DNA of 64,000 bases, from the NCBI RefSeq assembly GCF_034932065.1, contig NZ_JAYGHP010000006.1:174686-238685 (forward strand), written 5' to 3'. The translations under genes and the position numbers were made by a program. Position 1 is the first letter of the stretch; each line of letters starts with the position of its first letter. This DNA is from Crocosphaera sp. UHCC 0190 (GTDB lineage: Bacteria; Cyanobacteriota; Cyanobacteriia; Cyanobacteriales; Microcystaceae). Below, piece after piece: positions 7,374-11,164 of the stretch. The notes beneath the pieces are model-generated. The model was not told where the DNA came from, did no database searches, and was given only the letters and a program-made list of their open reading frames with translations.

Positions 7374-7597
7374 CGGTCATTAAGATAGTTATTTTTGTGA
7401 TTTATTAATTGTAACAAGTGACGTTAATTATTGATTTATTTTGCAGACATTCTTAACAAGTAAGATAATTATCATGATTGAATTAGCGATTGGGGAAAAA
7501 TGTGACAATAAAGGCTATGATAGTCACTAAAGAATCTTGATGACTTGATCTTTAGTTCTCAACAATAGAATTAAAGCAAATTCAAAAAATATTGGCG

Positions 7598-10120
7598 ATG
7601 GCTGCTTCCGATTTGATTACCTGGCTAAAAGAACGCACCACCCTGGCTTTATTGAGTACAGAGGTGCTAGAGGCGATCGCGCTTCAGATGAAATTAATTA
7701 CCATTGAAGCTTCACAAACCCTAGCGGTAGAAGGAACTTCCCCCGAAGGACTATATATTCTCAAATCTGGACGGATTCAAAGTTACGGCAAAGTCAGACC
7801 AGAGGTTGGCTTACTCCCAGGGAAAGTGATTAACTTGAGAGCCTTAATTTTAGAGCAATCCGCATCAGAAACCCTCAAAACACTGACTGAGTGCGAATTA
7901 TGGTGGATTGCCACCCCCGATTTTAAATCATTGCTGGAGCAATATCCAGACATCACTCAAGCTTTCTCCCAACAATTGGCGAAAGAGGTAGAACAATTGT
8001 CTGCTGCCTTGAGTTTTGAACAGGAACGACAGACCATTTTACGTCCCTATTTAGTCCCCAAAGTGAAGCGGGGGGTGATTGGCAAAAGTCGCTATGCTGT
8101 TAAATTGCGCTCCCAGATTCAATGTATGGCAGATAATCGCCAACCTGTGTTGATTTTTGGCGAAGCGGGCTTACAAAAAGACAATCTGGCGGCCTTAATC
8201 CATTTTAGTTCCCCTTTCCGTCGAGAGCCAATTATCCAAGTCAATTGTTCCCAATTGCAAGGGCGTGGTGCCGAGCTATTCGGACGAACAGGAGGAAAAT
8301 TAAGCTTGCTCGAAGCATTAGGGGAAGGAACGATTATTTTAACCAATCTTCAAGAACTGACACCAGAATTATTAAAATCCATTGCCGAATTACTCTCCAC
8401 GGGAACCTATCAACCTGTCAGCCGCCAAGGAGAGGCTCAAGGGACTCGCAAAACGAGTCAGGCGCGAATCATCATCATTTCTGAGAAAAAGCTCCCCAGC
8501 ATTGATGGACTGGTGAAAAATATTATTAAAGTTCCCCCCCTGCGAGTCCGCAAAACCGACATCGAGGACTCAGTTAATTACTACATTAGTTTAATTTGTC
8601 GGGGGAGGGGCATTGCCAAAGTAAGTCTGAGTGATGAAGCATTACGGAGGCTGCAAGCTTATGATTTTCCCAATAACTTAAGAGAACTCGAAAATCTCAT
8701 TCAACGGGCGATTGTACAGTTACAAGGGTATCCAGAGATTACCGAAGAAATTATCTGGCCATCCCAAAGCAAAAAACAGCAATTTCGCTTCAATCTTCTC
8801 AATGCCTATCCTAGTTTGCGTCACTTTTTGCGGAGTGAATGGTATCCTGAACGCCTAAATTATGGTTTTACCCTGACTGTCTTTGCTGCGGTCAATATTA
8901 TCCTCTTTGTCGGGCCGCAAACGCGAGAGCAAAACTTTGCTTTAAATCTTTTTTGGGCCTGGTGGTGGCCCCTGGTATTAATTGGATTTCCCTTTGTGGG
9001 ACGGCTTTGGTGTGCTGTTTGTCCCTTTATGATTTATGGAGAAGTTACTCAAAAAATCTCCCTTTGGTTATTTCCGCGACAACTCCAAAAATGGCCCCGT
9101 CAAGCGGCTGAAAAATCCGGTGGTTGGTTTTTATGGGGTTTATTTACCTTAATTCTCTTGTGGGAAGAACTCTGGGATTTAAAAAATACCGCCTATCTTT
9201 CTTCTTGTTTGTTGCTTTTGATTACCGCAGGAGCGATGATTTGTTCAACTATTTTTGAACGCCGCTTTTGGTGTCGTTATTTATGCCCGATTGGTGGCAT
9301 GAATGGACTGTTTGCCAAACTGTCAATGACAGAATTACGAGCGCAACAGGGAACTTGTTCTGCCGAGTGTAGCACCTATCAATGTTATAAAGGCGGCCCG
9401 CAAAAAGGAGAAGGCTTAGAAACGGAGGGTTGCCCCTTATATTCCCATCCGGCCCAACTTGTAGAAAATCGAGATTGTGTGTTATGTATGACCTGTTTAA
9501 AAGCCTGTCCTCATCGTTCTGTGGAGTTGAATTTACGCCCTCCTGGAATTGAATTATGGACAACCCATGTTCCTCGAACTCATGAAGTTGCTTTGCTGTT
9601 TCTTTTATTAGATGCTATTTTTTTACATCGTTTACCCCAGGTGCAAGCTCAATTGGGAATTTCTGGGGATTTAAATCGATTTGGGATACATTTGGCCATG
9701 GCGGTTCTGGCCTTGAGTCTGCCTGTCCTATTCCCTGTAATAATCCATCAAATGATGAGAGTTTTCGTGAAGTTTCAATCAAACCTCAAAATTCGCTCTT
9801 TTAAGGAATTAGCCTATGGCTATTTGCCCTTAGTCTTAGCGGGAAATTTGGCTTATTATTTACAAATGGGACTAGGGGAAGCGGGCAGAATTTTACCCTT
9901 AACCTTAGCTAACTTTGGGTTTTCAGGAGAAGGGTTGCCTATTTTTGTTGCCCATCCTGCGGTAATTGCTTTCTTACAATCCACCCTTTTAATTTTTGGT
10001 GTGCTTTTGTCGATTGTTTTGACGCAAAAAATCGCTAAACTGCCTTTTCGATACTTACTTTTTCAACATTTATGTACGGCAATTTTTGCATTTTGTTTAG
10101 GGAAAATCATTCTTACTTAA
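7598..10120 (+). CDS. cNMP-binding / degenerate sigma-54-type AAA+ / membrane polyferredoxin fusion
   Basis: About 840 aa in three modules. Numbering is from the TTG at 7592, which is an alternative start two codons upstream. (1) A CRP-like cyclic-nucleotide-binding domain, about 20-140. (2) An NtrC-type AAA+ domain, about 160-390, recognisable by LFG, LRVRKTDIED and NNLRELENLIQRA. Its Walker A is GEAGLQKD (190-197) instead of GESGTGKE, its Walker B is ILTNL instead of FLDEI, and the GAFTGA loop is missing. (3) From about 400, several membrane segments with NapH/NosR-like iron-sulfur motifs: WCAVCP (473-478), CRYLCP (561-566) and the ferredoxin motif CVLCMTCLKACP (629-640), plus extra cysteines at 589, 593, 598 and 614. 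Cyanobacteria lack sigma-54, so a transcription-activating ATPase role is unlikely. A redox sensor or membrane electron-transfer protein is inferred. Confidence 0.85.
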   Translation: MAASDLITWLKERTTLALLSTEVLEAIALQMKLITIEASQTLAVEGTSPEGLYILKSGRIQSYGKVRPEVGLLPGKVINLRALILEQSASETLKTLTECELWWIATPDFKSLLEQYPDITQAFSQQLAKEVEQLSAALSFEQERQTILRPYLVPKVKRGVIGKSRYAVKLRSQIQCMADNRQPVLIFGEAGLQKDNLAALIHFSSPFRREPIIQVNCSQLQGRGAELFGRTGGKLSLLEALGEGTIILTNLQELTPELLKSIAELLSTGTYQPVSRQGEAQGTRKTSQARIIIISEKKLPSIDGLVKNIIKVPPLRVRKTDIEDSVNYYISLICRGRGIAKVSLSDEALRRLQAYDFPNNLRELENLIQRAIVQLQGYPEITEEIIWPSQSKKQQFRFNLLNAYPSLRHFLRSEWYPERLNYGFTLTVFAAVNIILFVGPQTREQNFALNLFWAWWWPLVLIGFPFVGRLWCAVCPFMIYGEVTQKISLWLFPRQLQKWPRQAAEKSGGWFLWGLFTLILLWEELWDLKNTAYLSSCLLLLITAGAMICSTIFERRFWCRYLCPIGGMNGLFAKLSMTELRAQQGTCSAECSTYQCYKGGPQKGEGLETEGCPLYSHPAQLVENRDCVLCMTCLKACPHRSVELNLRPPGIELWTTHVPRTHEVALLFLLLDAIFLHRLPQVQAQLGISGDLNRFGIHLAMAVLALSLPVLFPVIIHQMMRVFVKFQSNLKIRSFKELAYGYLPLVLAGNLAYYLQMGLGEAGRILPLTLANFGFSGEGLPIFVAHPAVIAFLQSTLLIFGVLLSIVLTQKIAKLPFRYLLFQHLCTAIFAFCLGKIILT

Positions 10121-10279
10121 CAAAAATTTCTGGTTCTGGAGTTAAGGAAAAATAAATCATTTTTGACTCTCAAGTTAATCGCTCTAATAACGTTTAATAT
10201 GGTTTAAGGGAGCTTAGCCCTGGTAGCGATGTTCTCCCTTATAATACCAGGGTGCAAAAATTTACCCTCAAGGACAATT

Positions 10280-11164
10280 ATGGAAATTGCAGCAACTACT
10301 ATTGATAAAGTTTTGACCGATTTAGCCGCACAACCTAATCCTCGTTGGACAAATTTAGATCTCGACAAACAAAGAAAACAGATTCAAGCTGAATTAAACT
10401 CTTGTGGCCCCAAAGATGGCATGATGCGAGTCATGACAAGAATGCCCTTTCAGGAAGCACCAGATTTAGGAAACATTGATTGGGAATCAGAATTAGCAAC
10501 TTTTCAACCCATTGAATATCCTCAATATTACTGTCAGCCTTTTCATAGTGTTTTAGGAGGATGGTTGTCAGAAATTGCCGCAGTTGGTAATCGAGTTGCA
10601 ATGGAAGCGGTTTTAGAAAATGCCCATCCACAAAAATCATTGGGAGTAAGAGAAGAAATCGCCCAATTATTTCCTGAAAATGCTCGCCATATTTTAGACT
10701 TGGGAGCAGGAGTTTCAGATGATGGAGCAGCTATTGCTCGTCGTCTTCCGAATGCTACGGTAACGGCTTGGGAGGTTTCTCCTTTCATGATTATTGTCGG
10801 CCGCCTTCAACAAAAGGATATTCCCAATCTACATTGGAAACATGGTTTAGTAGAAAAAACTGACTTGCCAGATAATTCAGTTGATGGGATCAATATGACT
10901 TATCTTCTCCATGAATGTCCTGATGAAATTAAGCAATTAATCCTAGCGGAATGCTGGCGCATTCTCTCTCCAGGTGGTTTGCTTGTCGTCACAGATTCAC
11001 TCCCTGGCGACTTGTATTCATACAGAGGCTTTTTTGAACCCTATAAAGAGCAATGGCTCAAAATTGACCCAGATAAATTACTTCAAGAAACAGGCTTCAT
11101 CAATATTAAAGCTTATCAGTTTGCCTATTCTACTTGGACTCGTGTTGGGAGTAAACCTATCTAA
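10280..11164 (+). CDS. class I SAM-dependent methyltransferase
   Basis: A 294-aa protein with a Rossmann methyltransferase core in its second half. Motif I is ILDLGAGVSDDGAAIARRLP, an acidic WEVSPFMI block follows, and GINMTYLLHECPDE plus LSPGGLLVVTDSLP match the type 11 family. The first ~110 residues are a poorly characterised extension. The start is set at the ATG at 10280 because AAGGA precedes it by five to six bases; an upstream in-frame start at 10229 would add 17 residues without a ribosome site. The substrate is unknown. It is convergent with the DUF3352 gene across a stem-loop. Confidence 0.85.
   Translation: MEIAATTIDKVLTDLAAQPNPRWTNLDLDKQRKQIQAELNSCGPKDGMMRVMTRMPFQEAPDLGNIDWESELATFQPIEYPQYYCQPFHSVLGGWLSEIAAVGNRVAMEAVLENAHPQKSLGVREEIAQLFPENARHILDLGAGVSDDGAAIARRLPNATVTAWEVSPFMIIVGRLQQKDIPNLHWKHGLVEKTDLPDNSVDGINMTYLLHECPDEIKQLILAECWRILSPGGLLVVTDSLPGDLYSYRGFFEPYKEQWLKIDPDKLLQETGFINIKAYQFAYSTWTRVGSKPI

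Follow-up and report, generated by a model that had tools for sequence, protein, structure and literature searches.

A cyanobacterial gene named as a sigma-54 regulator encodes an AAA+ domain stripped of its catalytic motifs and fused to a conserved, predicted membrane Fe–S module

The window analyzed here is a 64,000-nucleotide stretch of the Crocosphaera sp. UHCC 0190 genome, and the gene of interest occupies positions 7598-10120 on its forward (+) strand. It encodes a protein of 840 aa. The ATG at 7598 is the likelier start, with a TTG at 7592 as the alternative, and the database entry of the protein (P0001, 840 aa) begins at 7598. Pfam identifies four domains, each scoring above its cut-off: cNMP_binding (3.8e-10), Sigma54_activat (1.6e-11), AAA_lid_14 (1.2e-11), and Fer4_5 (2.1e-9). 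Neither an HTH family nor an FMN-binding domain appears among the Pfam matches up to E 1. Many NtrC-type regulator models of NCBIfam also match, as does napH_, and all those shown fall far under their cut-offs. The encoded chain opens with a CNB-fold domain (PF00027; residues 20-140, 7655-8017, +), followed by a sigma-54-type AAA+ core (residues 155-310, 8060-8527, +) and its lid (PF25601; residues 316-389, 8543-8764, +). It continues into a first membrane part (residues 415-575, 8840-9322, +), a predicted two-cluster Fe–S part (residues 587-638, 9356-9511, +), and predicted C-terminal membrane helices (residues 661-839, 9578-10114, +). The motifs quoted in a preliminary description of this DNA are all in place, with GEAGLQKD at 8159-8182, ILTNL inside GTIILTNL at 8327-8350, and CVLCMTCLKACP present; GAFTGA is absent, as that description had said.

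Its own genome has a single copy of the gene and, beyond it, just one match, which covers the CNB part at 25% identity. On the same strand, a gene for a SAM-dependent methyltransferase (window 10229-11164, +) begins 108 bases further downstream, and no conserved neighbor gene was found for the main copy. A database search with 7996 scored candidates returned 2465 proteins at E ≤ 0.001, indicating that the architecture is not a product of chance. The Fer4_5, Sigma54_activat, and cNMP_binding domains are precomputed in 119 of the 120 matches listed, the exception being P0115, which has no Fer4_5. Across the family, database names read "sigma 54-interacting transcriptional regulator" or "nitrogen assimilation regulatory protein". 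A survey of the phylum yielded matches at E ≤ 0.001 in 180 of 386 genomes; 103 of the 386 have matches below 1e-100 among the matches listed, and all of these belong to the window's own class. Its distribution is patchy, with the gene present in 6 of 17 listed genomes of the window's own family. The best 80 of 379 loci apparently all carry cyanobacterial names. One close match, P0189, is named as a dinoflagellate protein (Prorocentrum cordatum) and possibly reflects cyanobacterial contamination of that assembly.

We compared 258 distinct proteins: 229 in a main clade, 19 in a second clade (family f25), and 10 in a paralogue clade. The main clade comprises 120 database proteins and 109 from loci; this sample consists of best hits and is weighted to close relatives. 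In a tree of the membrane domain (64 rows), the second and paralogue clades each form a single group (100/100), with the root unsure. Three copies (L134, L137, and L147) are split over two frames or truncated and are probably broken genes or assembly errors.

The membrane and Fe–S module is the most conserved region of the protein. The fraction of positions at 98% identity is 0.53 in the first membrane part and 0.69 in the Fe–S part, compared with 0.19 in the AAA+ core and 0.01 in the CNB domain. Twelve cysteines are kept in 229/229 main-clade proteins, 10/10 paralogues, and 18 or 19 of the 19 second-clade proteins, in line with the strict cysteine conservation that, according to the preliminary description, would support a redox-sensing family. 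They run as CX2CP and CX3CP pairs (9011-9025 and 9272-9289, both +), whose cysteines are found in 258/258 proteins, and then as CX3CX4C...CP (C587, C591, C596, C612) and CX2CX2CX3CP (C627, C630, C633, C637). Both cluster motifs are conserved; the second is ordinary, and the first, with its CX3CX4C spacing, is not. From these motifs we infer that the cysteines carry two [4Fe-4S] clusters beside the CX2CP/CX3CP pair, and the predicted helices would place the head and the clusters together on the cytosolic side. Support for the module consists of Fer4_5, a weak napH_ match (TIGR02163; 49.1 bits against a curated cut-off of 213.05), predicted helices, and the twelve cysteines. The Fe–S part is poorly modeled (pLDDT <50 at residues 189-236 of the module model), and no solved structure clearly matches the module.

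Membrane helices, two Cys-Pro motifs, and Fe–S cysteines predicted to be cytosolic are shared with NapH, NosR, and RdhC (Fer4_5, PF12801), families described in PMC5928378. Where the NapH/NosR type has CX3CP twice according to that account (PMC5928378), the first motif of the window family is CX2CP. The window protein further differs in its CX3CX4C first cluster motif, its additional C-terminal helices, the AAA+ and CNB domains in front, its lack of an FMN domain, and its napH_ score under the cut-off. The membrane part of NapH has been proposed to be a quinol-oxidizing domain (PMC5928378). Proteins with PF12801 are described as a widespread NapH-like group of mostly unknown reactions, found in flavinylation gene clusters whose components are underrepresented in Cyanobacteria (PMC8238504). 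A standalone 4Fe-4S membrane protein encoded on a plasmid of Deinococcus ficus (WP_027463891.1) can be aligned with the paralogue along the entire module (25.8% identity), and by eye all twelve cysteines fall in place; it has neither AAA+ nor CNB domain, and its neighbors are different. A haloarchaeal standalone relative (Natrinema) lacks several of the twelve.

The AAA+ head has an intact core and lid fold and shares this fold with the sigma-54 activators NtrC1, FleQ, NtrX, and PspF. The motifs that sigma-54 transcription regulators need, Walker B and GAFTGA among them, are a different matter. Pattern searches found a Walker-B DE box, a GAFTGA-like loop, and an Arg-finger motif each in 0/258 relatives, and the GAFTGA-loop and Arg-finger segments are shortened. 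In the altered Walker A of the window protein (GEAGLQKDN, 8159-8185, +), GEAGLQKD does not satisfy GxxxxGK; the Lys is kept, and the Gly before it occurs in 17/229 main-clade rows. Lys194 and Asp195 are each found in 229/229 main-clade proteins. In the altered Walker B (GTIILTNL, 8327-8350, +), the DE positions are replaced by a family consensus NN, in 226 and 227 of 229 main-clade rows, respectively. An invariant Walker-A Lys together with a near-fixed NN in place of DE indicates that the head is retained in a specific altered form. The preliminary description had proposed a catalytically stripped sigma-54-type domain and named conserved loss of Walker B and GAFTGA across homologues as something that would support a new family; loss of the Walker-B DE pair and GAFTGA is common to 258/258 relatives, and because it is fixed across the family the observation is stronger than first stated. 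Three of the 120 listed database proteins (P0012, P0014, and P0015; 1115-1121 aa) are longer and carry two tandem copies of the altered AAA+ domain, a dead domain that was duplicated and kept.

The same description had held that cyanobacteria lack sigma-54. A search with the PF04552 profile gives no match in this organism's own genome, while 4 of 14 control genomes do match. In the phylum as a whole, the profile picks up 11 of 386 genomes at E ≤ 0.001, two of these over the cut-off, and one of the two looks real: a match to the sigma-54 DNA-binding domain (2.3e-16) in a 207-aa frame at G123:C1:411956-412339, in a genome of the window's own order and unusual for the group. One family outside the window's class encodes proteins of 653-766 aa (L148, L149, and L150) with tandem AAA+ activator domains that keep their DE boxes and GAFTGA-like loops; its genomes are not among the listed PF04552 hits.

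The paralogue clade (L138-L147, and plasmids of Aulosira laxa and Pseudanabaena galeata) is 38-40% identical to the window protein and shares its domains, its membrane cysteines (10/10), and its lack of a Walker-B Glu. It differs in keeping most of the P-loop, with the GxGKT core in 9/10 and the first Gly in 2/10. On both plasmids the paralogue lies directly before a cysteine synthase gene, near psbA, a petC-type gene, and thiol or sulfur-transfer genes; the P. galeata plasmid also encodes an SQR-like flavoprotein (98 bits, under the model cut-off). A cysK gene lies within 6 kb at 7/12 paralogue loci (10 genomes and the two plasmids) versus 3/107 others (p 1.5e-6), and psbA at 2/10 versus 0/107 (p 0.0066), although both p-values are optimistic because flank lengths differ among loci and near-copies were counted. 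An SQR-like gene is present in 5/10 paralogue genomes versus 2/20 controls (p 0.026), the controls being hand-picked from the top of the phylum-survey matches, and HdrA in 4/10 versus 2/20, which is not significant (p 0.14).

In one genus (L144 and L145) the paralogue follows an HdrC-B-A-C-B-like cluster whose members score under NCBI cut-offs, and in four other genomes such a cluster stands without the paralogue in the fetched stretch. The cluster lies at L144:2269-6838 and occurs also at L145, L164, L165, L166, and L167; the fetched stretches of L144, L164, L165, and L166 contain an SQR-like gene as well. Its gene order resembles that of sulfur-oxidizing sHdr clusters, and it is possibly a cyanobacterial sulfur-oxidation route. 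Low-oxygen forms of psbA lie close to sqr in several cyanobacteria, according to PMC5061849. The cysteine synthase, extra psbA, and SQR-like genes beside the paralogue suggest a role for the family in balancing electrons when sulfide is present or oxygen is low; for the main-clade copy in the window, such a role would be an extrapolation.

Because the regulator part has lost the motifs that regulator function needs, the protein likely carries or senses electrons rather than activating transcription. The explanation that we favor, and that we judge to have an even chance of being correct, is a quinone-linked membrane polyferredoxin with a nonhydrolyzing AAA+ docking and control head. The NapH/NosR-like module would link the quinone pool to a cytosolic partner by passing electrons between them, with the exchange between module and quinone assumed by analogy to the proposal for NapH in PMC5928378. 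The head, having lost its catalytic and sigma-54-contacting motifs, may answer a bound partner or ligand by altering access to the clusters. Several observations weigh against this explanation. The napH_ score is far under its cut-off, the Fe–S part is poorly modeled, and its first cluster motif is unusual; the main copy has no conserved neighbor, it is the paralogue that is found in a sulfide setting, and the Hdr-like linkage is confined to one genus, with a nonsignificant HdrA comparison.

The module could instead belong to a membrane redox sensor, in which the Fe–S part reads how reduced quinone or ferredoxin is and the head holds or frees a soluble regulator, without any net transfer of electrons. 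In its favor, the N-terminal half consists of regulator-type domains, and a single chain conserves both the head and the Fe–S part; yet conservation is strongest in the electron-carrier part, and we regard this reading as possible but rather unlikely. Activation or assembly roles are reported for NosR and NapH beside electron transfer (PMC5928378) and would fit a role in maturation or assembly, with electrons or reducing equivalents supplied for the building of a metalloenzyme; a candidate client enzyme is, however, absent beside the main copy, which makes this reading improbable. The database names and the AAA+ fold would suit a transcription regulator tethered to the membrane and acting with sigma-70 in the manner of VpsR, the second-best PDB match to the family profile, but with no HTH, with the Arg finger and Walker B gone, and with a chain that runs on into a membrane module, we consider it very unlikely.

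The remaining alternative concerns the CNB domain, whose fold is backed by Pfam and by comparison with solved CNB chains. Of the "CRP-like cNMP-binding" domain in the preliminary description, the fold stands and the ligand residues do not. In an alignment to a PKA-type chain, the cassette FGEL...PRAA corresponds to INLR...SASE in the window protein (residues 75-95, 7820-7882, +). The cassette Glu position is Leu in 217/229 main-clade rows, and T, A, or V mostly takes the place of the Arg; some rows have an Arg displaced by one or two columns, which may mark a shifted ligand contact. A phosphate-binding cassette pattern that matches three control chains was found in 0/239 main and paralogue rows, 233 of which have the domain. 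The CNB domain is also the least conserved part of the protein (1/140 positions at ≥98% identity in the main clade) and is absent from 25/258 relatives (4/229 main clade, 19/19 second clade, and 2/10 paralogue), some of these rows being broken copies. A cAMP/cGMP-gated electron carrier, as first put forward for this gene, thus has the fold in its favor and is barely credible, since a CNB domain without the ligand-holding Glu and Arg, and missing from those relatives altogether, leaves cyclic-nucleotide coupling unsupported.

Synechocystis slr1529/ntrX shares the name "nitrogen assimilation regulatory protein" with family members and, judged by this name, is probably an orthologue. In one genus of the window's own family, the gene is present in 5/5 genomes and is the best PF00158 match in each. 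Deletion of slr1529 was among the six of 32 mutants with the largest 72 h metabolite change by PCA and, as a point against the favored reading, does not figure in the second ranking, by Euclidean distance (PMC5318462). The gene is entered in a table of copper-repressed genes with a ratio of 0.29 (PMC4182526) and is lower in an iron-deprivation table of PMC3516471 (values of -0.74, -1.17, -0.07, -0.35, and -0.67). Lower expression in these two tables would suit an Fe–S protein, although it is not specific to one.

Extending the quinone-linked polyferredoxin reading, we tentatively suggest, as a proposal more likely wrong than right, that in cyanobacteria an ancestral sigma-54 activator became a membrane redox gate, in which a dead AAA+ head with Lys-Asp and Asn-Asn fixed in its nucleotide pocket controls when electrons move from the quinone pool of photosynthesis to metabolism in the cytosol or back, and that a specialized sister form serves sulfide and low oxygen. 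A widespread cyanobacterial gene is named as a transcription regulator, the label under which a screen also deleted its probable orthologue in Synechocystis, while its sequence points to a membrane Fe–S redox protein. If the favored reading is true, cyanobacteria own an uncharacterized carrier of electrons, probably quinone-linked and topped by a regulatory head, and this family would be a clear case of an AAA+ remodeler kept without its ATPase chemistry. The paralogue clade offers a lead, open to testing, into photosynthesis under sulfide and low oxygen.
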